From the NCBI GenBank assembly GCA_028101545.1, contig JAOHKZ010000001.1, forward strand, positions 1-64,000: a stretch of DNA of 64,000 bases, written 5' to 3'. The first letter of the stretch is position 1, and the number at the start of each line of letters is the position of its first letter. The DNA comes from Opitutales bacterium. Its GTDB lineage: Bacteria > Verrucomicrobiota > Verrucomicrobiia > Opitutales > Seribacteraceae. Positions 37,350-51,081 of this stretch are shown piece after piece. Made by a program: the position numbers and the translations under genes. The notes under the pieces are model-generated. The model was not told the DNA's origin. It saw only the letters and a program-made list of their open reading frames with translations, and did not search any database.

Positions 37350-40300
37350 TTAACTTTCAATAAACTCTTCTTTGAGCTGAATTGGCAATATTTCTGCCAT
37401 TTCCCATGTAACGTTCATCGGTTCAGCTCCAGTATGCCCTTTGTAGGATAGTTGACCAAGGTATACGAAGGGCGCGGCTTTTTTGCCTGCCATCTTGTGC
37501 TTTCTAACAAATAGGTGAACATCGCTGTTATCTTTTGCATGATTAATAATTCGTAATCCGGAATTATTTTGTGCAGATGAGCGGTTCTGGCTCTGCCAGT
37601 GAAAAGTTTGTGAATCGATGAAATAGTCGTGGTAGCGGTGTTCTTTACCGTGATTTCTTTTGTTTATGGTGACGAGTAAAATTTGTTTGTTTATCGCTTT
37701 GGGGCATACATGACCTTGTTCCCAAAGGCCTTTGTTAAATTCTAAACCAAATAATGGTGGGATTTCCTCGCGCATGTAGCGTTGGTGCAAATATAGATCA
37801 AAGGGGTTTATGATTTCCTTGAAGCGTGCACGGGTACGCATGTTTTCATTTGCCTGAATAGTTTCGTACTCTGGGTTGAGGGCAATTAAGTCGTATTGGC
37901 CAGGTCCTGTCTTGCTGACTTTGCGGAGTAGGTACTGGTCACCTCCAGATTCGGAGTCTGTTTCTATGGCAACGATTTGATTGTTTAAACTGCCAGCAGA
38001 TTGCGTACTGATGTTTTCAAATAGTAGATGGTCGCCATCGCAAATTGGATTGGTACCGCCGTTCATGGAGTTGCCTTTTGCTCGGGCAATGAAGTGGATA
38101 GCTGGGTTGAGTTTGCCGTATTTAACTGGTAGCTGGGTTAGTTCGATCGATTCGCGTTCATGCGGGCTTTCGGCAAAGAATCCACAAGCAATTTGTAGGT
38201 TGGTGAAATAGGGAATTTCTGAGCCTTGTTCTGTGTCAGGAAGTTCGGACGGCGTAGAGCTTGGTTCTTGGTTACTTCGAGATTCGTAATTGAGATAGCG
38301 GAAGTTGACTAATTCTTGAGTGAGTTCATTGAGTGATTCGACGTCACTTGCTTGTACATTTTGATGATATTGAAATGAATTACCTTCTTGGGTGAAGTAT
38401 TTGGGCCTGTTTTCAGAGTGCTTGCCTAACCATGCGTGAACGGGGTTTCGTTTCCAGTAGGATATCCAGGCTTTTTCTGTTTTTGGATCTTGGTTAATAG
38501 AGGAAAAGAATTCTTGGGGAATGTCGCCCGCAAGTTGGGTTCTTCGTTTGAGGGTATGCCAAGACTTTATCGATAGCGTATCTAGGTCGACCGGTGTTGT
38601 GAATCCATCGAGGTCGAGGAAGGTTTCCATTAGAACGAGTTTAAATGATTTTGACAGTGATGTAATTTCAAGTTCTTGGAGGAATTCTCCGTGTTCTTTT
38701 GCGACCAATTCAGTATCAGGTTCTAAATCTTTTTCGCTAATGAGTAGGTTGATCCAACTTCCATATTCTTTTTTGATTTGCACGAGGGAACCACCCGCGA
38801 GATAAAACTCCGAAGCGGTAGGCCGCCTGCCGAGTGATTCTTTTAATGATCGGTAGGTATCGAGGTGAGTATCAATTTTGGTTTGGATTAATTTCTCTAA
38901 GAATTCAATCGCTTCTAAATCGTAGTTTACATAGCAACCATCCGCTAATTTGATTGAGCCTTCGCGGATCTGTTTGATGAATTTTTTACGGTCTTGATTG
39001 GTTACACCGATTTGGAAGAGGGCTTCGGCTTTTTTGAAAAAGCTAATGTGGTTGCCGATTAAATCGAGAACGACGAGTTTTTCTTTCCCGCTTTCTTTTG
39101 CTTGCCTGAGCCCGCGTCCAAGTTGTTGAAGGAAGATGATTTTGGACTCGGTGGGTCGAAGCATTAAGACGGTGTCAATTTTGGGCAGATCGACTCCTTC
39201 GTTAAATAGGTCGACGGAAAATATTACTTCAATTTCGCCACGGTTTAGTTGATCCAGTGCTTCATTTCGGCGGAGTTTTGATTCACTGTGAATGGATGCA
39301 CATCGAATATTTTTCCGGTTGAAAAAATCTGCCATGAAATCGGCGTGTTTAATCGAAATGCAAAATGCGAGTGTTCGGTTTTGTTTACGCTGTGACCAAT
39401 TTTGGAAAGCATGTTCAGCACGGGCTTCGGTGGCTAATTGGTTTTGGAGTTCTTCGGGGTCAAATTTTCCGTTTCGCCATGAGATTTCTTGGTAATCGAC
39501 TTCGATATCTGCAATGCCAAAATAAGTAAAGGGGCAGAGGACAGATTGATTGATCGCTTTGACCATGCCGTTTTCAAAAACTAAGTTGTTATCGCACAGA
39601 GAGAGAATATCAGCTTGGTCAGTCCGTTCTGGAGTAGCGGTAAGGCCTAATAAGAATTTTGGAGTGAAGCCTGATAGCAGTCGTTTATAACTAGAAGCCC
39701 CCGCGTGGTGAAATTCATCGACTATAATGTAGTCGAAGTAAGTTTCGTAAAATTTATCCAGGTGAGTTTGTCGACCCAAGGTTTGAATGGATGCAAAGAG
39801 TATATCTACATTTTTATCTTTCTGGGTGCCGGTATATTTACCAACTTTAGCATCTTCGAATATTCGAACAAAAGTTTCCTCTGCTTGGGAGAGGATTTCC
39901 TCGCGGTGGGCAACAAATAGAATTTTTTTCGCTCTGGTTTCTAAGCAGTCAAAAGCGGCAAGCCAGGTTTTGCCGGTACCGGTTGCCATGACGACTAAAC
40001 CACGTGCATTTCCTTCAATGCGACACTTCTTGAGGGCGAGTAATGCTTCTACCTGAATTGGATTGGGTTTAACGGGAGGTAGGCATTCTTTTTCTACTTC
40101 AACCCCGCTCTTTATTTTGTCCTGAGGAGTTTTTGATTCGTATTCATCGCGGTATATATCGATCCATTCATTTGATAAATGAACCGCTTGTGGATTTTCG
40201 AAGAGAACTTTGAACTTTGAGCAGATTTCCTGGAATGCACTTTGATTTTCAGATGAAGTAATTCTTAGGTTCCATTCTAACCCATGATTTAATGCGGAAT

Positions 40301-40679
40301 GGCTTATATTGCTAGAGCCTACATAAGCGACGCCATCTTTTGATGACCTGTCTTCACGGTGAACAAAAATATAGGACTTCATATGGAAAGCAGTATTTCC
40401 AGATTCATATATTTTAACCTGAGCCCCTTTTTCTTGTAGGATCATTAAAGCTCGGAGAGCTTTGGGCTCCGTTATGTGAAGATAACCACTAGTAATAATC
40501 CTGATTTTTACATCTGCTTCTAATGCGTCTTCAAGTGCAGGCTTAATAAGCTCTAGTCCAGATGATCGAATAAAGGAAACCGCAATATCAATCCGAGTTG
40601 CTTGATTGATAGCCGTAATCAGCTTAGGCAGGAAATGATCATCACCCCCAGTAACTAAGCTTTGCTCAGAAATGTTCAT
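37350..40679 (-). CDS. PLD-like nuclease + DEAD/DEAH helicase + S24 peptidase-like + DUF3427-like fusion
   Basis: FHMKSYIF...GVAYVGSSNISHSALNHGLEW (HxK PLD); VVMATGTGKTWLAAF; DEFHHAGASSYKRLL; QQLGRGLRQ; AKGNSMNGGTNPICDGDHLLF...YLLRKVSK (S24 Ser/Lys pattern); C-terminal VFVYLGQLSYKGHTG-type region. Confidence 0.85.
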   Translation of the reverse strand: MNISEQSLVTGGDDHFLPKLITAINQATRIDIAVSFIRSSGLELIKPALEDALEADVKIRIITSGYLHITEPKALRALMILQEKGAQVKIYESGNTAFHMKSYIFVHREDRSSKDGVAYVGSSNISHSALNHGLEWNLRITSSENQSAFQEICSKFKVLFENPQAVHLSNEWIDIYRDEYESKTPQDKIKSGVEVEKECLPPVKPNPIQVEALLALKKCRIEGNARGLVVMATGTGKTWLAAFDCLETRAKKILFVAHREEILSQAEETFVRIFEDAKVGKYTGTQKDKNVDILFASIQTLGRQTHLDKFYETYFDYIIVDEFHHAGASSYKRLLSGFTPKFLLGLTATPERTDQADILSLCDNNLVFENGMVKAINQSVLCPFTYFGIADIEVDYQEISWRNGKFDPEELQNQLATEARAEHAFQNWSQRKQNRTLAFCISIKHADFMADFFNRKNIRCASIHSESKLRRNEALDQLNRGEIEVIFSVDLFNEGVDLPKIDTVLMLRPTESKIIFLQQLGRGLRQAKESGKEKLVVLDLIGNHISFFKKAEALFQIGVTNQDRKKFIKQIREGSIKLADGCYVNYDLEAIEFLEKLIQTKIDTHLDTYRSLKESLGRRPTASEFYLAGGSLVQIKKEYGSWINLLISEKDLEPDTELVAKEHGEFLQELEITSLSKSFKLVLMETFLDLDGFTTPVDLDTLSIKSWHTLKRRTQLAGDIPQEFFSSINQDPKTEKAWISYWKRNPVHAWLGKHSENRPKYFTQEGNSFQYHQNVQASDVESLNELTQELVNFRYLNYESRSNQEPSSTPSELPDTEQGSEIPYFTNLQIACGFFAESPHERESIELTQLPVKYGKLNPAIHFIARAKGNSMNGGTNPICDGDHLLFENISTQSAGSLNNQIVAIETDSESGGDQYLLRKVSKTGPGQYDLIALNPEYETIQANENMRTRARFKEIINPFDLYLHQRYMREEIPPLFGLEFNKGLWEQGHVCPKAINKQILLVTINKRNHGKEHRYHDYFIDSQTFHWQSQNRSSAQNNSGLRIINHAKDNSDVHLFVRKHKMAGKKAAPFVYLGQLSYKGHTGAEPMNVTWEMAEILPIQLKEEFIES

Positions 40680-41166: not shown

Positions 41167-41428
41167 AGGCAGGTGATTGGTTGTATTTTAAATTAAGGAT
41201 AAATGACGGCGATTTATTATACATACCTGTCAACCCCTTCACTTTTTTCAGGCTTCTGGGTTAATTTCTATGATCTTTTATTATCGATCGATAAGATCTG
41301 TGTGCAGGTAAAGTCCTTACTGAATCTAGTGATTACGCTTGGTCAATAAGACTTGAGGTTAGACAATATAAGTTTTAAGTTTAGAACAATAACTTGCATT
41401 TGTATTACGTTTGTCATACATTTATGGG

Positions 41429-41689
41429 ATGAGTAAATCTTCTATGGTACAGGCACGAATGGAGCCAGAATTAAAGGCCAGTGCAGAGTCGATATTTAGT
41501 GAGCTTGGGCTGAATTCTGCCCAGGCGATCACTATCTTTTATAAACAGGTGGAACTTAGTGGTGGGTTGCCTTTCAAGGTCGTCGTACCCAATGAGAAAA
41601 CCCGAAAGACTTTTCAACAAACTGATGAGAGGAAGGATTTGATCGTCTGTGAGGATGCCGGAGATATGTTTAAGAAACTGGGCTTATGA
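41429..41689 (+). CDS. RelB/DinJ-family antitoxin
   Basis: MVQARMEPELKASAESIFSELGLNSAQAITIFYKQVELSGGLPF; start moved to internal Met. Confidence 0.88.
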   Translation: MSKSSMVQARMEPELKASAESIFSELGLNSAQAITIFYKQVELSGGLPFKVVVPNEKTRKTFQQTDERKDLIVCEDAGDMFKKLGL

Positions 41690-41955
41690 GCCTGGTTCCC
41701 ATTTATACCAAGCAATTTGAAAAAGACCTCAAGCGTTCTCTTAAACGAAATAAGAGAGTGGAGAAATTTAAGTTGGTGGCGGAGGCTTTGATTGAGGGGC
41801 AGGAATTGGACCCGATTCATCGAGATCACAAATTGATCGGTAATTTTATTGGACGCCGGGAATGTCATCTGGAATCCGATTGGTTATTGATTTATAAACT
41901 TGAAAAAGGAAGGGTAATTTTTGAAAGAATGGGTACCCACTCCGATTTATTCTAA
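41686..41955 (+). CDS. YafQ-family (RelE superfamily) mRNA interferase toxin
   Basis: YTKQFEKDLKRSLKRNKRVEKF...LDPIHRDHKLIGNFIGRRECHLESDWLLIYK; ATGA overlap with antitoxin. Confidence 0.9.
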   Translation: MSLVPIYTKQFEKDLKRSLKRNKRVEKFKLVAEALIEGQELDPIHRDHKLIGNFIGRRECHLESDWLLIYKLEKGRVIFERMGTHSDLF

Positions 41956-42183: not shown

Positions 42184-42212
42184 TTGACGTTAAGTAAGTA
42201 CTTACTTACAAT
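42184..42212 (+). promoter_or_regulatory. Predicted sigma70-type promoter TTGACG-17-TACAAT with 18-bp perfect palindrome TAAGTAAGTACTTACTTA at 42191-42208
   Basis: Read directly from sequence; lies 48 nt upstream of the first gene of the 42260-45745 operon. Confidence 0.75.
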
Positions 42213-42259: not shown

Positions 42260-43144
42260 ATGGAGAATGAAGAGGGAAAGAAGGGTATGTTTCGGGCATA
42301 TCAGGTGGCGCAGGAGATGATTAAGGATCGACTGGAGGATGTGGATGAAGAGGCAGCGAAGGAGATGGGCGAGGTGGCTGGAAATGAGGTGATTGTAGCC
42401 CGCGGGGCTTACGACTTTATTGAACGGGTTTTTAGTAAGATGGATATGCCTCATAAGGTGGTGGATCCATCCGCTTTTGAGGCGTTTGGGCCGTCGCCCG
42501 AACAGATCGTTTTTCTGAATTGTCCGGGTAAGGTGGATAAGGAGGGGGTGCGTAATTTAAGAAATTTTGTGGAGAAGGGTGGCTTTCTTTTTACCACCGA
42601 CTGGGCTTTGAAGCATGTGATTGAACCGGGTTTCCCTGGGACTTTACGCTATAATGGCAGAGCTACCGGGGATGAGGTTGTTCGTGTCGAAATTGATGCG
42701 AAGGAGGATGCATTCCTAAAATCCCTGATCGGGGAGGGGGATGATCCGCAATGGTGGATTGAGGGTTCGAGTTATCCGATTGAAATTTTGGATCCGAATA
42801 ATGTGGAGGTTCTGGTTCGTTCGAAGGAGGTGAAGGAAAAGTACGGAGAGAGCCCGGTTTTTACCTCGTTTAATTATGGGAAGGGGAAGGTGTATCATAT
42901 GATTTCCCATTTTTACCTGCAGCGTACCGAGACCCGGACGGAGAGGCATAGGCGGACGGGATCGGATTATATGGAGGAGAAGTTAAGGATGAATTCGGCC
43001 AGGCGGGCGAAGTATCGGAGAATGGGGGTGGATCGTTCATCCCTGGGTGAGGTGGAGGCGGCTTATTCAAGTTCTGCCTTGATGGGAAAGGTAATGTATG
43101 AAAAATCGGTGAGCTTGAAAGAATTTAGAAACGACGAACTATAA
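42260..43144 (+). CDS. GATase1/ThuA-like fold protein of unknown function
   Basis: QIVFLNCPGKVDKEGVRNLRNFVEKGGFLFTTDWALKHVIEPGFPGTL...SPVFTSFNYGKGKVYHMISHFYLQ; resembles GATase-like 'FVxxGGFLF' proteins. Confidence 0.55.
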   Translation: MENEEGKKGMFRAYQVAQEMIKDRLEDVDEEAAKEMGEVAGNEVIVARGAYDFIERVFSKMDMPHKVVDPSAFEAFGPSPEQIVFLNCPGKVDKEGVRNLRNFVEKGGFLFTTDWALKHVIEPGFPGTLRYNGRATGDEVVRVEIDAKEDAFLKSLIGEGDDPQWWIEGSSYPIEILDPNNVEVLVRSKEVKEKYGESPVFTSFNYGKGKVYHMISHFYLQRTETRTERHRRTGSDYMEEKLRMNSARRAKYRRMGVDRSSLGEVEAAYSSSALMGKVMYEKSVSLKEFRNDEL

Positions 43145-43581
43145 TGGGAAAACCGGATGATCAGATGCTCAATCGTGGAGCCAGGACTTACCTGGCTCAT
43201 GCGGTGAAGGCGGCTACCCATCCGGTTCGCAGAGAAATCCTGAAGTCTCTCAAGAAGGGCCCGCAAAGCACGGTCGATCTTGAGGGGGAATTGAAGGAGT
43301 CCCGTTATAATCTTTACCATCACCTGGATGTTTTATCATCTGCCGGGTTGGTAAAGGAGAGTTCTTCGAAGAGTGGAGGGAAGATCCGTCATTTTGCACT
43401 CAAGGAACCAAAGCGGCCGGAGTTGGCAGTTTTGCTTTTTGATGAGGCGGAATTGAATCAAGACCCCAAAAGCAGAGAGAATTTTCTCGATGCCCTTGAG
43501 ATGCTTGAAGGAAAACCCATCCCACATCGGGATAAGGTGGTATCGGCTGAGATTCAGCTCCGGTACCCCTGGTCAAAGTAA
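43144..43581 (+). CDS. ArsR-like winged-helix regulator
   Basis: VKAATHPVRREILKSLKKGPQSTVDLEGELKESRYNLYHHLDVLSSAGLVKE; ATG overlaps upstream TAA. Confidence 0.85.
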   Translation: MGKPDDQMLNRGARTYLAHAVKAATHPVRREILKSLKKGPQSTVDLEGELKESRYNLYHHLDVLSSAGLVKESSSKSGGKIRHFALKEPKRPELAVLLFDEAELNQDPKSRENFLDALEMLEGKPIPHRDKVVSAEIQLRYPWSK

Positions 43582-43745
43582 TTCTTTGCCTGGTTGACGG
43601 GGCCTTGTCCTGTCGGCGGCGATTCATCGTAAATAACCCCCATTTCGGGAACGGATTTTCTGGCTGCAGATAACAAGCAACACTTGGTTGCCTGGCAAAA
43701 AATTTAATTAATAAAAAACAAAATAGAGAAGGAAAAAAAAGAAGT

Positions 43746-45056
43746 ATGAGTATATTCACAACAAAGTTAGATTATAATAAAGTATTGGCGAATCAGGAGA
43801 ATGATGTTCACTTAGTTACCCGGATTGATGCCCCGAAATTGCAGTCGGATGAAAGAAAACCAGTGGCATTTACAATCTGTCTGGACCGGAGTAGTTCGAT
43901 GGCAATGGAAAGAAAATTTGATTATGCCTTGGAGGCCTGCGTGGGAGTGGTTAAAAATTTGAGGCCGGATGATCTGTTCTCCTTGGTTACTTTTGATAGT
44001 GAGGTGGAGGTGGTTCTTCCCTTGGAGAAAATTGAGGATAAACAAAGGGTATGTGAGATAATAAAAAGTTTATCCACCCGTGGAATGACATATTTGAGCG
44101 GAGGTTGGGAGCAGGCCAAGGACGAGTTACTTAAGGCAGCGCCCGGAATGTTAAAAAGGATGTTACTTCTAAGTGATGGTGTAGCAAACAGGGGGATTCG
44201 TGATCATCGGGAATTGATTACTTTGGTTGGGGACGGCTTACGCGATCATGGGATCCGTACTTCATGTCTCGGGTTCGGGGATCATTATCAGGAGGATTTA
44301 CTTTCTGATATGGCGACTCATTCGACGGGGAATTTTTACGATGTTGATTCGAAGGAAAAACTGCCAATCGTTTTTGCGGCTGAACTGGAGGGTGCACTTC
44401 GAATTTCAGTAGAAAATCTGCGTGTCCGCATTAAGACTGAGGAGCAGTGTGAGTCTTGGGATGACTTTGGAGGAATGAGAAAAACCATTCTCGATGATGG
44501 CCGAACAGAACTTTTGATTGGAGATTTGGTTTCGGAGGAGGTTCGTTCTTTTGCCCTCGAATTGAAGGTGCGCTCCGCTGATTCCGGCTCGATTGGGCGC
44601 TTGATCTCAATGGATTTTGTTTATGATCTTGTTGGGGAGGATGGATCGTTACCTACTTCGGAAGAGCGGATGATTGAAATTTCTTTTGTAAATAATCCGG
44701 AAGATGTGCAATTGGATGATACACTGCTTGCCATCATCACAACTCAACGGACATCCAGAACTATCAGAAAAGCCATTGAGAAAATTGACCAGGGTGAAGA
44801 AAGGGAAGCGATCGAATTTCTCAGAGGGGAGTTAAAGAAGCTGGAGGAGTTGGGAAAACCGGAGTTAATCGCGGACTCGGAGATGTTGATCCGTTCGACC
44901 ATAGAGAAAATTGAAATGGGATGGAGGCGAAGTAGGGGGCGTAAGTTCGCGCAGTACAGTTCCCGTTCCTATTCTAAGATGAGTTCATCGGAATACTGGT
45001 CTGCTGATGAATCATACAGTCCATCCTTTAAGGGAACTAATGACGACGAGTTATGA
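43746..45056 (+). CDS. von Willebrand factor A domain protein
   Basis: PVAFTICLDRSSSMAMERKFDYALEA (MIDAS DxSxS); RMLLLSDGVANRG. Confidence 0.92.
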   Translation: MSIFTTKLDYNKVLANQENDVHLVTRIDAPKLQSDERKPVAFTICLDRSSSMAMERKFDYALEACVGVVKNLRPDDLFSLVTFDSEVEVVLPLEKIEDKQRVCEIIKSLSTRGMTYLSGGWEQAKDELLKAAPGMLKRMLLLSDGVANRGIRDHRELITLVGDGLRDHGIRTSCLGFGDHYQEDLLSDMATHSTGNFYDVDSKEKLPIVFAAELEGALRISVENLRVRIKTEEQCESWDDFGGMRKTILDDGRTELLIGDLVSEEVRSFALELKVRSADSGSIGRLISMDFVYDLVGEDGSLPTSEERMIEISFVNNPEDVQLDDTLLAIITTQRTSRTIRKAIEKIDQGEEREAIEFLRGELKKLEELGKPELIADSEMLIRSTIEKIEMGWRRSRGRKFAQYSSRSYSKMSSSEYWSADESYSPSFKGTNDDEL

Positions 45057-45745
45057 TGGTTAACCGATTAAAGAAAAAACTTCACAAGTTAAAGGATCCA
45101 CAACTTGAATTGCCCTTTAATGGGATTGGTGTGAAGCCACAGTTCGAGGTGAAAATATTTGGGACGAAACAAAATAATTTACAGTTTTCTGTGCTCGAAG
45201 ACGGTAGTCGATCCCAGTTGTACTCGATGACTGCATTCGTAAAAGATGATCATTTATATCTCGGATATTATGGAGATAATCATTGCTGGTATCCCGACGG
45301 AAAATTGAAGGGGGTTTCTCACTTTTCTAAGGGTAGACAACACGGTAAGCAGATTACTTGGTATCCGGACGGGAGCTTACGTAGGAGTTGGTACTGGCAC
45401 TATGGAGAATTTCATGGTCGCTGGATGGAATGGTATGAAAATGGAGTCACTTCGTTCCAGGGACATTATCGATTTGGTAAGAAGCATGGCAAGTGGTGGC
45501 AGTGGTACGAGAATGGAAGGATGGCGGTGGCAGGAGATTTCCTGGATGGATATGCCCTGGATCTAACGGTATGGAAACCAGATGGTACGCTCTGTCCAGA
45601 GTCCGGCGTGACTGCCGGTTTTGGATACTGGTTAAGTTATGAAGAGAACGGTGAGCTAAAAGACCGAACGGAAATTTCGAATGGAGAAATTGTTTACGAC
45701 TTACCGGATGAAGACGAAGATATAGACGACGAATCTGATAGCTGA
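45053..45745 (+). CDS. MORN_2/YwqK-like repeat protein
   Basis: WYPDGKLKGVSHFSKGRQHGKQITWYPDGSLRRSWYWHYGEFHGRWMEWYENGVTSFQGHYRFGKKHGKWWQWYENGRM; ATGA overlap with vWA gene. Confidence 0.88.
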   Translation: MMVNRLKKKLHKLKDPQLELPFNGIGVKPQFEVKIFGTKQNNLQFSVLEDGSRSQLYSMTAFVKDDHLYLGYYGDNHCWYPDGKLKGVSHFSKGRQHGKQITWYPDGSLRRSWYWHYGEFHGRWMEWYENGVTSFQGHYRFGKKHGKWWQWYENGRMAVAGDFLDGYALDLTVWKPDGTLCPESGVTAGFGYWLSYEENGELKDRTEISNGEIVYDLPDEDEDIDDESDS

Positions 45746-45950: not shown

Positions 45951-47837
45951 ATGTTTAACGATTTATATGGAATTGCCCGTTGGGGAGATGGATTGGTGGA
46001 TATTCTTCCTAATGGAAATGTGGGATTAAAAGACCCGCTGAGCCCGGATGCACAGGCCGTGGATTTGGCGGAGATTATTCAAAAACTTGAAAAAAGAGGT
46101 ATTCAAACCCCGGTATTGCTACGGGTTTCAAATTTTTTGGAACATCGTATTAATGCAATTAATGAAGGTTTTCGCTCTGCGATTGAACAGGTTGGATATG
46201 GGGGGAAATATCGCGGGGTTTTTCCAATAAAAGTAAACCAACAGGCTCATGTGGTGGAGAGAATTTCAGAGTATGGTGAAAGTTTTGATTTCGGATTAGA
46301 GGTTGGCTCAAAAGCAGAACTATTGATTGCTCTTTCTCAATGCGATAATCCACAATCTTTGATAATTTGTAACGGATTTAAGGATACTGAGTTTATTCGG
46401 CTTGCCCTGCTGTCAACAAAGCTTGGTATGAATACAGTAATCGTATTGGAGAGCGTGCGGGAACTAAAGTTGATCATCAAGGTATCCCGCGAGCTAAATA
46501 TTCCTCCGACCCTGGGAGTGCGGGTAAAACTGGTAAATGTTGTAAGTGGGAATTGGGCAGCAACGAGTGGAGACCGTTCATCGTTTGGGCTTTCAGTCGC
46601 ACAGGTCGTGGAGGTGGTGGATGTATTAAGGCAGGAAAATTTATTAGACTGTCTTGTTCTGCAGCATTCCCATTTGGGTAGCCAGGTTCCGAATATGATT
46701 GAGATTCGTAAATTTGCTCAGGAGGCAAGCAGGCTATTTATTGAGATTGGTAAGTTGGGAGCGAATTTAAAATACCTGGACTTGGGCGGGGGGTTGGGGG
46801 TTGATTACACGGGGGAAAATTCATCCAATCCAAATTCAATCAATTATTCTTTGGAAGAATACTGTTACAGCTTGGTGGAGACGGTAGCGTTTGAAATGAA
46901 TGAGGCCGGGTTGCCTCATCCATTTATAGTAACTGAAAGTGGACGGGCATGTGTGGCACAATCCTCCATGCTTTTATTCAGTGTTCTTGAGAGCACAAGT
47001 TATGAGAGCAATGTGGAAGTTGTGAGCCGTGAGGATGATCATCCATTGCTTCGTTCCCTTATTGAAATATCGGCTGAATTTGGTTCCCACAGTCCGCTCG
47101 AATCCCTTAATGAAGCCAGTTATTATCGGGATGAATTGAGAGCGAATTTTAGAAGGGGTAGGCTGTCCCTTCCTGTACTTGCTCGTGCGGAACAGGCTCA
47201 CCAGCGAATTCTCGGGCAAGTCCGGGCAATCATGAGTGAGCTTGATGATTCTGAATATAGTGAGGAATTAAATCTCCGGATCCAGGGGATGGCGGATATA
47301 TATCATTGTAATTTTTCATTATTTCAGAGCCTGCCCGATGTCTGGGCCATTGATCAATTACACCCGATTATTCCTCTTACTCGGTTGCATGAAAAACCTG
47401 ACCGTAATGCGGTGCTTTCTGATATTACCTGTGACAGCGATGGCCGGATTGATCGCTTTGTGGTCGCGGATGGCGTGGCTGATTGTCTTCCTCTTCATAG
47501 TTTACGGGATGATGAACAGTATTATTTGGGTGCATTTTTTGTGGGGGCTTATCAGGAGACTTTGGGTGATTTACATAATCTTTTTGGGGATACGAATGTG
47601 GTAACCATACGACTTAAGGAGGGTGGGGAGTTTGAACTGCTTGACGAGGTGGAGGGTGATACAGTTTCTGAAGTCCTGAGCTATGTGGAATATGAACCCA
47701 AGAGATTATTGGAGAAATTTAAGGCAAAGGCGGAGAAAGCTGTTAAAGAGCATGGGGCAACCCTTGAGGAATTGAAGGAATTGGTGACCACATACCGTGA
47801 TAGTTTACGGGGGTATACTTATTATGAATCTGACTGA
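45951..47837 (+). CDS. speA: Biosynthetic arginine decarboxylase
   Basis: 628 aa; YGIARWGDGLVDILPNGNVGL; FPIKVNQQAHVVERI (PLP lysine region); GLEVGSKAELL. Confidence 0.94.
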   Translation: MFNDLYGIARWGDGLVDILPNGNVGLKDPLSPDAQAVDLAEIIQKLEKRGIQTPVLLRVSNFLEHRINAINEGFRSAIEQVGYGGKYRGVFPIKVNQQAHVVERISEYGESFDFGLEVGSKAELLIALSQCDNPQSLIICNGFKDTEFIRLALLSTKLGMNTVIVLESVRELKLIIKVSRELNIPPTLGVRVKLVNVVSGNWAATSGDRSSFGLSVAQVVEVVDVLRQENLLDCLVLQHSHLGSQVPNMIEIRKFAQEASRLFIEIGKLGANLKYLDLGGGLGVDYTGENSSNPNSINYSLEEYCYSLVETVAFEMNEAGLPHPFIVTESGRACVAQSSMLLFSVLESTSYESNVEVVSREDDHPLLRSLIEISAEFGSHSPLESLNEASYYRDELRANFRRGRLSLPVLARAEQAHQRILGQVRAIMSELDDSEYSEELNLRIQGMADIYHCNFSLFQSLPDVWAIDQLHPIIPLTRLHEKPDRNAVLSDITCDSDGRIDRFVVADGVADCLPLHSLRDDEQYYLGAFFVGAYQETLGDLHNLFGDTNVVTIRLKEGGEFELLDEVEGDTVSEVLSYVEYEPKRLLEKFKAKAEKAVKEHGATLEELKELVTTYRDSLRGYTYYESD

Positions 47838-47852
47838 TAAAGGAGAAGAAAT

Positions 47853-49058
47853 ATGACAAAGGTTTTGGTTGTTGGAGCAGGCGGTGTTGGATCGGTCGCA
47901 GTTCATAAAATGGCAAGTTTACCAGAGGTCTTTTCCTCGATCACTCTTGCAAGCAGGCGGATTTCCTCCTGTGAAAAGATTGCCAAATCAGTGGATGAAC
48001 GGTTTGGGGTAAGTATTGAATCTTTCGAACTTGATGCGGATAAAGTGGAAGATACGGTTTGTCTGTTGGAGAAGGTAAAGCCAGATCTTTTGGTAAACCT
48101 GGCTTTGCCATATCAGGACCTGGCATTGATGGATGCATGCCTAAAGGTTGGGGTGCATTATTTGGATACTGCCAACTATGAACCCAAGGATCAGGCAAAG
48201 TTTGAATATCGTTGGCAGTGGGAATATCAGGATAGGTTTGAAGATGCCAGGCTTATGGCATTGTTGGGTTCTGGGTTTGATCCCGGGGTCACAAATATTT
48301 TCACCGCCTGGTTAAAAAAGCACCACTTCGACAGGATTGATACGCTTGATATCTTAGACTGCAACGGGGGGGATCATGGGCATCCTTTTGCCACCAATTT
48401 TAATCCTGAGATTAATATCCGTGAGGTTACGGCACCTGCCAGGCACTGGGAGAAAGGGGACTGGGTGGAAACACCTGCGTTGTCCCATAAGAAATCCTTC
48501 GATTTTCCAAGTGTTGGTGAGCGTAATATGTATCTGATGTACCATGAAGAATTGGAATCTTTGGTTAAACATTTACCAGAAATAAAGAGAGCCAGGTTTT
48601 GGATGACTTTTGGAGATGCCTATTTAACTCATTTAGAGGTTTTGCAAAATGTGGGGCTTACTTCAATTGAACCGATCATGTACAATGGTCAGGAGATCAT
48701 ACCGTTACAATTCCTCAAGGCTGTGCTCCCAGATCCAGGTGGATTGGGTGAACGAACCAAGGGGAAAACTTGTATAGGTAACATTGTTACCGGGGAGAAG
48801 AATGGTTCCCAGGTAACCAAGTATCTATTCAATGTGTGTGACCATGAAAAATGCTTTCGTGAAGTTGGCAGCCAGGCGGTGAGTTATACGACGGGGGTGC
48901 CTGCTATGATTGGTGCCGCATTGATGATACAGGGTATTTGGAAGGGTAAGGGTGTTTTTAATATGGAACAAATGGATCCAAATCCCTTTATGGATATGTT
49001 GAATGAACATGGCCTGCCCTGGGAGGTTCGTGAGTTAAGTAGTCCATTGGATTTCTAA
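47853..49058 (+). CDS. Saccharopine-dehydrogenase-family protein, likely carboxynorspermidine synthase
   Basis: KVLVVGAGGVGSVAVHKMASLPEVFSSITLASRR; immediately upstream of nspC. Confidence 0.9.
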   Translation: MTKVLVVGAGGVGSVAVHKMASLPEVFSSITLASRRISSCEKIAKSVDERFGVSIESFELDADKVEDTVCLLEKVKPDLLVNLALPYQDLALMDACLKVGVHYLDTANYEPKDQAKFEYRWQWEYQDRFEDARLMALLGSGFDPGVTNIFTAWLKKHHFDRIDTLDILDCNGGDHGHPFATNFNPEINIREVTAPARHWEKGDWVETPALSHKKSFDFPSVGERNMYLMYHEELESLVKHLPEIKRARFWMTFGDAYLTHLEVLQNVGLTSIEPIMYNGQEIIPLQFLKAVLPDPGGLGERTKGKTCIGNIVTGEKNGSQVTKYLFNVCDHEKCFREVGSQAVSYTTGVPAMIGAALMIQGIWKGKGVFNMEQMDPNPFMDMLNEHGLPWEVRELSSPLDF

Positions 49059-50233
49059 TGCTTCCGACACAAAGCGGAGGACCCGGTGCCTTTGATCAAT
49101 TTGATTTAAATCGTGTGCCCACGCCATGCTATGTTGTGGATGTGGAAAAGATCCGTTCAAACCTTGAGGTTTTGCGTGCGATTGCAGATCGTTCAGGTGC
49201 CAATCTACTTCTTGCTCTGAAAGCATTTTCGATGTGGTCTTTGTCAGAATTAATAGAGGAGTATCTTGATGGATGTTGTGCTTCCGGGTTGTGGGAGGCA
49301 AGGTTGGCAAGAGAGAAAGGACTGGCTGAAAAAAGTAAATCAAAGATTCTTTCGACCTATTCGCCCGCTTACCGGTCTACAGAAATTAATGAAATCTGCT
49401 CCCTTTCTGACCATTTAATTTTTAACCATCCCGGTTCATTTGGGGTGAAGCAGGCAAGTGAAGCTGGAGTTTCTGTTGGTTTGCGAATCAATCCAGAAAT
49501 TTCCCTGGGACATGATCCGAAGTATGATCCGAGCGCAGAAAACTCAAGGCTGGGTTATCCCATCAGTCACTTATCTGAAGAGCAAATTTCCGGATTTGAT
49601 GGTTTGCACTTTCATAATCTGTGCGAGCAGAACTTTTCTCCATTAGATAAAACCTGGCGGAAGGTGGAGAAAGATCTCGGAAATCGTCTAAATCAATTTG
49701 ACTGGGTGAATATGGGGGGAGGGCATCATTGTACAAGGGAGGATTATGACCGGGACGGGTTAATTAATTTACTGGTTGAGGTCTCGAAAAAATACAATGT
49801 TCAAACATATTTGGAACCTGGGGAAGCGGTTGCCTTGGATGCGGGTATTCTTGTGGGTGAGGTGCTTGATACCATGAATGCAGATAAAGACCATGCATTA
49901 CTTGATGTAAGTGCAACTTGTCATGCGCCTGATGTGATTGAGGCTCCTTATCGCCCGGCACTGATGGGAGATCTAGATAAGGGGGAATATCGATATCTCC
50001 TGGGTGGTTCCAGTTGTTTGACTGCGGATTGTTTTGGGGAATATGGATTTGATAAGAAACTTAAGCGCGGAGACCGGGTAGCATTTTTAGATCAAGCCCA
50101 TTACACTATGGTAAAAACAAATACTTTTAATGGAGTCCCATTGCCATCGATTGCGTTGTGGAATTCAAAAACCGATGAATTGTCGATAATCAAAAAATTT
50201 GGTTATGAGGAATTTGAGAACCGTTTATCATGA
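49058..50233 (+). CDS. nspC: Carboxynorspermidine decarboxylase
   Basis: VPTPCYVVDVEKIRSNLEVL; LLLALKAFSMWSL; WVNMGGGHHCTREDYD; ATG overlaps upstream stop. Confidence 0.92.
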   Translation: MLPTQSGGPGAFDQFDLNRVPTPCYVVDVEKIRSNLEVLRAIADRSGANLLLALKAFSMWSLSELIEEYLDGCCASGLWEARLAREKGLAEKSKSKILSTYSPAYRSTEINEICSLSDHLIFNHPGSFGVKQASEAGVSVGLRINPEISLGHDPKYDPSAENSRLGYPISHLSEEQISGFDGLHFHNLCEQNFSPLDKTWRKVEKDLGNRLNQFDWVNMGGGHHCTREDYDRDGLINLLVEVSKKYNVQTYLEPGEAVALDAGILVGEVLDTMNADKDHALLDVSATCHAPDVIEAPYRPALMGDLDKGEYRYLLGGSSCLTADCFGEYGFDKKLKRGDRVAFLDQAHYTMVKTNTFNGVPLPSIALWNSKTDELSIIKKFGYEEFENRLS

Positions 50234-51081
50234 CGAATAAGAATATCCAGTTTTTAGGGTCGGAGTTGAAGGAGGTGGAAAACGGGAGAGAATCTTCAAA
50301 GTTTCAAATTATTCCATGTCCGATGGAAAAAACCGTTTCTTATGCACGGGGAACAGCCGGTGGACCGGCAGCCATTATTGAGGCAAGCCAGGAGTTGGAG
50401 AGATCAAATATTTGCAGTGCAGGAATCTTTACCCAGAAGGCAATTAATTGCTCGGTGGAGCATGCGGATTGTATGCATGAACTGAGAGAACGGGTGGGTT
50501 CTATTGTCCGGAATAATCAGTTTCCTTTTACTCTGGGGGGAGAGCACTCTTTAACCTGGGCCACAGTGAGTGGGATTTCCGAAGTACTGGGGAAGAAAAT
50601 TGGGATTGTTCAAGTCGATGCGCATGCAGATCTTCGCAAGGATTATTTGGGCAATGCACATTCCCATGCCAGTGTGATGAATCTATTGGTGAATGAGGGG
50701 CATCAATTAGCCTCACTTGGCGTACGTGCGATGTGCGAAGAAGAGAGAGATTTCCGGAAAGCAAATGGGATCCTTTTTTGGGATGGCGAGGAATTAGTCC
50801 GTTCCAATACGAGCTCAGTTGAACTACCCGATAACTTTCCAGAACTTGTATATATTTCCTTTGATTTAGATGGACTGGACCCTTCCATTATGCCGGCAGT
50901 TGGAACTCCGGTGCCGGGCGGGTTGAATTATTATCAGTCAATAGATTTAGTAAGCTCCGTTCTCAAAGGGCGTACATGTGTCGGTATGGATGTCGTTGAA
51001 CTCGCTCCCGTTAAAAATGATATAGTCTCCCCCTTTACCGCGGCATCTCTTTGTCAGAGGTTGTTGGACCTTGTTCGGTAA
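50230..51081 (+). CDS. speB: Agmatinase (ureohydrolase family)
   Basis: FTLGGEHSLTWATVSGI; IVQVDAHADLRKDYLGNAHSHASVMN; ISFDLDGLDPSIMPAVGTPVPGGL. Confidence 0.92.
   Translation: MTNKNIQFLGSELKEVENGRESSKFQIIPCPMEKTVSYARGTAGGPAAIIEASQELERSNICSAGIFTQKAINCSVEHADCMHELRERVGSIVRNNQFPFTLGGEHSLTWATVSGISEVLGKKIGIVQVDAHADLRKDYLGNAHSHASVMNLLVNEGHQLASLGVRAMCEEERDFRKANGILFWDGEELVRSNTSSVELPDNFPELVYISFDLDGLDPSIMPAVGTPVPGGLNYYQSIDLVSSVLKGRTCVGMDVVELAPVKNDIVSPFTAASLCQRLLDLVR

Follow-up and report, generated by a model that had tools for sequence, protein, structure and literature searches.

Organization of the locus

Four co-oriented open reading frames, which we refer to as P1 to P4, lie on the forward strand of the 64-kb stretch of DNA analysed here (the window), whose host we take to be a marine bacterium. 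P1 (42260–43144) codes for a 294-residue protein with a GATase1-like fold and no curated family match over cut-off, and P2 (43144–43581) for a 145-residue ArsR-type winged-helix protein, a predicted repressor with the recognition helix RYNLYHHL. P3 (43746–45056) encodes a 436-residue cytosolic-type vWA protein with a DxSxS motif and a conserved Ser/Tyr-rich tail ending in DDEL, and P4 (45053–45745) a 230-residue protein with MORN_2 repeats and a Pfam match over cut-off. P1 and P2 overlap by 1 bp and P3 and P4 by 4 bp, and a gap of 164 bp separates P2 from P3. The window's reading frames confirm the four genes, their common orientation and their overlaps at start and stop codons as given in a preliminary description of this DNA, and its domain calls are correct: HTH_20/HTH_5 for P2, VWA for P3 and MORN_2 for P4 in Pfam, and GATase1-like for P1 by an AlphaFold (AF2) model.

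A RelB/DinJ-YafQ toxin-antitoxin pair lies directly 5′ of the cassette (41411–41955); among relatives in the same genus, a YafQ gene is found upstream of the cassette in locus L019 and both RelB/DinJ and YafQ in L020. Immediately 3′ of P4 is an alternative polyamine pathway operon (45951–51081) containing genes for arginine decarboxylase, a carboxynorspermidine synthase-like protein and carboxynorspermidine decarboxylase, together with a fourth ORF. On the reverse strand, positions 37350–40679 encode a 1109-residue protein in which a PLD-like N-terminus, a DEAD/DEAH helicase and a possible S24/LexA-like C-terminal domain can be discerned by eye, and which could be a defence-type helicase.

A palindrome within the P1 promoter

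P2 is matched by the Pfam models HTH_20 (E 6e-11; 42.5 bits, cut-off 27) and HTH_5 (E 1e-8; 35 bits, cut-off 22). Its sequence contains no cysteine, which excludes a thiolate metal site, and its score against the NCBIfam metalloregulator model (38.1 bits) is below the 55-bit cut-off; on these two grounds we reject a metalloregulator assignment. Alignment across phyla shows a near-invariant recognition helix, RYNLYHHL, and a C-terminal part that is short and variable.

Upstream of P1 is a sigma70-like promoter on the forward strand (42184–42212; TTGACG-N17-TACAAT, a 10/12 match to consensus), the spacer of which is filled by a perfect 18-bp palindrome, TAAGTAAGTACTTACTTA (42191–42208), that sits between the two hexamers and extends 2 bp into the second. 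This palindrome, the putative P2 operator, is the strongest evidence in the locus, and it was absent from the preliminary description. There are several features that deserve attention. First, the sequences upstream of P1 in five loci of the genus are strongly divergent except for one short block, consisting of TTGAC[GA], the invariant TAAGTAAGTACTTACTTA and a −10-like TAC..., with the N17 spacing kept. Second, it is the sole match in the 64-kb window when up to three mismatches are permitted (0.02 expected), and with up to two mismatches all five P1-P2 genomes of the genus have a single copy and the 22 that lack the pair have none. With one copy per P1-P2 genome and none elsewhere in the genus, it has the distribution of a local switch and not of a regulon, and a global regulon is excluded within the genus (27 genomes, up to two mismatches). 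Third, the core of the operator, AAGTAA-N4-TTACTT, precedes P1 in 18 of the 20 loci that have the HTH gene and in none of the 31 that do not (Fisher p 7e-12, a descriptive value, as the rows are related and not independent); gains and losses of the HTH gene are few (2–4 independent pairs), such that a phylogeny-aware test of operator against HTH is without power. The two exceptions among the HTH loci are L024, which has a weaker site (10/12), and L039, which has no good operator and in which the recognition helix is altered to RMELYHHL. Finally, in the Asgard loci L105–L108 and L110 two operator copies flank a TATA-like box (ACTTATA / CTTTTAAG) just 5′ of the P1 start. Several Heimdall contigs are only about 4–6 kb long and could be misbinned; misbinning of the two-operator L105–L108 and L110 group is made less likely by a gene for an archaeal-type NMN adenylyltransferase on one of its contigs.

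P2 is most simply viewed as an autorepressor. Comparative sequence data support the existence of the gene pair, its operator, the tie between operator and repressor, and their spread across domains, and we infer DNA binding and repression by P2.

Distribution and evolution of P1-P2

Relatives of P1 with 37–99% identity are present in Opitutae, Anaerolineae/Chloroflexi, Gemmatimonadota, Latescibacterota, Bacteroidota and Asgard archaea, and the P1-P2 gene order is kept in all of these except Bacteroidota. The family is nonetheless sparse in bacteria: P1 is found in five of 27 genomes of the genus and in one of 289 in the sample of its own phylum (the window's own genome), and clear matches number about 2 in 297 for the Bacteroidota sample and about 2 in 301 for Chloroflexi, the remaining Bacteroidota matches to the P1 profile being weak and partial. 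The same profile matches 68 of 196 sampled Asgard genomes, with a group of longer paralogs included. No phage record carries P1, and a phage origin is rejected for this reason; a single relative was found on plasmids (32% identity, Kovacikia). A literature search returned no paper on the P1-P2 module, its operator or the combination of the four families, in line with the earlier proposal that the combination is undescribed. In one bacterial locus (L023) an ADP-ribosylglycohydrolase gene (1990–2763) lies shortly 3′ of P1-P2.

Bacterial loci other than those of Bacteroidota, and several from Asgard archaea, have P2 directly 3′ of P1, and there is no adjacent P2 beside most Asgard P1 relatives or any of the seven from Bacteroidota, the latter starting, by eye, with signal-peptide-like sequences. 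Both observations indicate that P1 has a role of its own, and both speak against P1 being the ligand sensor or anti-repressor of P2, binding a metabolite and thereby releasing P2 from DNA. The overlap of the two genes would suit such a sensor, as would a P2 with no Cys metal site and a C-terminal part that is only short and variable, but on balance we consider it improbable.

Among the groupings in a tree of P1, one unites the bacterial P1-P2 loci (SH-aLRT 98) and another the Bacteroidota P1s (86), the latter nested in a set to which Asgard rows also belong; diversity is greatest among the Asgard rows. Most simply, there would have been two or more transfer events linking bacteria and Asgard archaea, with the root and direction unsure. 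We conclude that a GATase-like/wHTH module, putatively autorepressed, appears to have moved between domains together with its own operator.

The fold and genomic associations of P1

Neither Pfam nor NCBIfam has a curated family that P1 matches above its cut-off; GH42M appears only below cut-off, ThuA is absent among the Pfam hits at E≤0.1, and no toxin family is matched. Its AF2 model (pLDDT 88.6) resembles GATase1-like structures in a Foldseek comparison with the PDB, including MetA/HTS homoserine transacylases, the GH42 middle domain and a ThuA-like protein, with E about 1e-5 to MetA/HTS, ThuA-like, ADC and anthranilate synthase structures and moderate TM-scores (query-normalised, 0.32–0.45). 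No evidence was found for a link to IFT52/GIFT. An alignment of 23 members contains about 50 invariant columns, among them C88, D114-W115, W165-W166-x-E168, H213 and H217, and the family motifs TTDWAL, WWLE.SSYPI and YHMISHFYLQR. Judged from the alignment and the order of secondary structure elements in the model, the invariant Asp114 appears to be at the elbow where class I amidotransferases carry their nucleophilic Cys, and the invariant Cys88 and His213/His217 elsewhere. P1 thus appears to be without the canonical GATase nucleophile, having Asp and not Cys at the expected position, and a canonical triad is unlikely.

The Asgard relatives provide a hint as to function. Their neighbours include genes for M3 oligopeptidase F (with a 4-bp overlap in L104), M24 and M32 peptidases, an S8 subtilase, an S12-type beta-lactamase-fold protein and HSP20, and the longer paralogs (about 375 residues; e.g. 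L130, 5933–7060) have a C-terminal RING/PHD/C1-like zinc finger, matched below cut-off, and lie between M20 peptidases in a conserved neighbourhood. Among 20 more distant genes taken as a control there is one clear peptidase (about 1/20), itself in a P1 locus; the adjacency was noticed post hoc and the sample is small. There is no peptidase neighbour at the window locus. Because of the peptidase neighbours and the zinc-finger fusion in the Asgard relatives, peptide or protein turnover is the likeliest field in which P1 may act, though we offer this as a tentative assignment.

P3 and P4 within the genus

P3 matches Pfam VWA (E 6e-17) with DxSxS intact, and P4 matches MORN_2 (E 4e-11; 42.3 bits, cut-off 29.6). 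The Ser/Tyr-rich tail pointed out earlier in P3 is real and is kept in an ortholog with 64% identity; the P3 structural model is unusable (pLDDT 48.5). Three other genomes of the genus have an ortholog of P3, and each of them has P1-P2; the searched genus genomes that lack the pair also lack P3. P3 thus accompanies the pair in four of five P1-P2 genomes, with differing flanking genes. P4 is seen in three genus genomes, with orthologs adjoining P3 in L019 and L022, and one further contig ends before the P4 position; the rest of the phylum sample has only distant MORN proteins. In L019 the P3 gene (1985–3296) is split into two overlapping frames, reflecting a frameshift or an assembly error. The other vWA genes in genomes of the genus resemble Bat and have no connection with the locus.

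The genus member L021 has P1-P2 without P3-P4 beside them, and vWA and MORN genes are absent from every P1-P2 locus outside the genus. The recurrence of P1-P2, and not of P3-P4, beyond the genus marks the former as the core and the latter as a lineage-specific extension. The proposal of a conserved four-gene system therefore holds for the block within the genus, where P3 occurs only with P1-P2, and does not extend further: a search for conserved gene order recovers P1-P2 across phyla and domains and P3-P4 in the genus only. The set is a cassette of this genus, and the pair on which it is built is more widespread, undescribed and probably autorepressed.

Two observations bear on how closely P3-P4 are tied to the pair. 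First, the 164-bp gap between P2 and P3 contains no terminator match, and the region has no more promoter-like matches than chance would give, from which it is probable that P3-P4 are co-transcribed from the P1 promoter. Second, P1 (43130–43141) and P3 (45042–45053) have in common the C-terminal sequence [ND]DEL, and among 108 proteins from the window and the genus loci the only ORFs ending in DEL are P1s and P3s. This points to a partner bound by both proteins or to recognition of one by the other; as P1 of L021 ends in DDEL with no adjacent P3, P3 by itself does not account for the tail.

These data also bear on whether the genes are ordinary neighbours, a regulator and an uncharacterised hydrolase-like gene beside which P3 and P4 lie by chance. 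The gap between P2 and P3 would accord with this, and P3 and P4 come from large, common families; against it, P1-P2-P3 are kept in four genus genomes with differing flanks, and the P1-P2 order recurs with its operator across domains. For P1-P2 this reading is already disfavoured, and overall we regard it as the least probable of those considered.

If the four products formed a complex devoted to stress or conflict, in which P1 is the enzyme, P2 the switch, the vWA protein a scaffold and the MORN protein a module for membrane or partner contact, this would likewise account for the tracking of P1-P2 by P3-P4 at differing flanks, and for the unusual C-terminus that P1 and P3 have in common. However, vWA and MORN genes are missing from L021 and from all P1-P2 loci outside the genus, PADLOC has no model for P1, P3 or P4, no phage record includes P1, and no MoxR AAA+ gene is adjacent to P3, the flanks of the locus being the RelB/YafQ pair and the polyamine operon. 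The stress or conflict role suggested in the preliminary description thus finds no support, and such a complex is unlikely, if somewhat less so than the sensor role for P1. A defence system is rejected, as PADLOC yields nothing beyond generic HTH matches for P2.

A model for the P1-P2 module

We favour, as a fairly probable explanation of the whole, an autorepressed P1-P2 module in which P2 regulates, P1 is the effector, and P3-P4 have been added in this genus. P2 would bind AAGTAA-N4-TTACTT in the P1 promoter, at a position between the −35 and −10 boxes, and would thereby keep its own unit silent until released by a signal. P1 would be the effector, a GATase1-like-fold protein probably acting on or sensing peptides or protein fragments. 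In the genus the P1 promoter most likely also drives P3 and P4, and these lineage-specific additions may dock P1 or its targets.

A more ambitious proposition is that one repressor-operator pair works both in a sigma70 promoter, with the operator in the −35/−10 spacer, and in an archaeal TATA promoter with two flanking operators, and that it has moved between several phyla of bacteria and Asgard archaea along with a new family of GATase-like effectors that take part in turning over peptides or proteins; this we consider a serious possibility, falling a little short of even. If confirmed, it would be a clear case in which a regulator and its operator have outlasted a move between domains whose promoter machinery differs, and P1-P2 would offer a route to the function of an undescribed Asgard family that has no curated model. 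The interest of the locus lies in this cross-domain pair and this uncurated, Asgard-rich family.

Comparison with known systems

Each component can be set beside known systems. P3 resembles the vWA proteins of the MoxR-vWA ternary conflict systems (PMC7159879) in having DxSxS and belonging to a multi-gene unit, but the locus is without MoxR, VMAP, STAND, FtsH or a beta-propeller partner, and GATase, MORN and ArsR are not found in the text of that paper. P4 has the MORN_2 repeats of YwqK-type proteins but no cognate adjacent toxin, its neighbours being P3 and speA. P1 has the fold of GATase1-like, ThuA-like and GH42 middle domains (AF2 model and Foldseek), and of class I glutamine amidotransferases, although it has no ThuA or GATase family hit and has conserved motifs of its own. 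The inferred autoregulation of P1-P2 is reminiscent of type II toxin-antitoxin modules, yet P1, at 294 residues, matches no toxin family. The closest parallel to P2 is with the ArsR/SmtB repressors: it differs from these in having no Cys thiolate site, in its metalloregulator score below cut-off, and in that its only operator per genus genome is in its own promoter, and it has in common with them the winged-helix domain, a repressor gene beside its target and a palindromic operator within the promoter.
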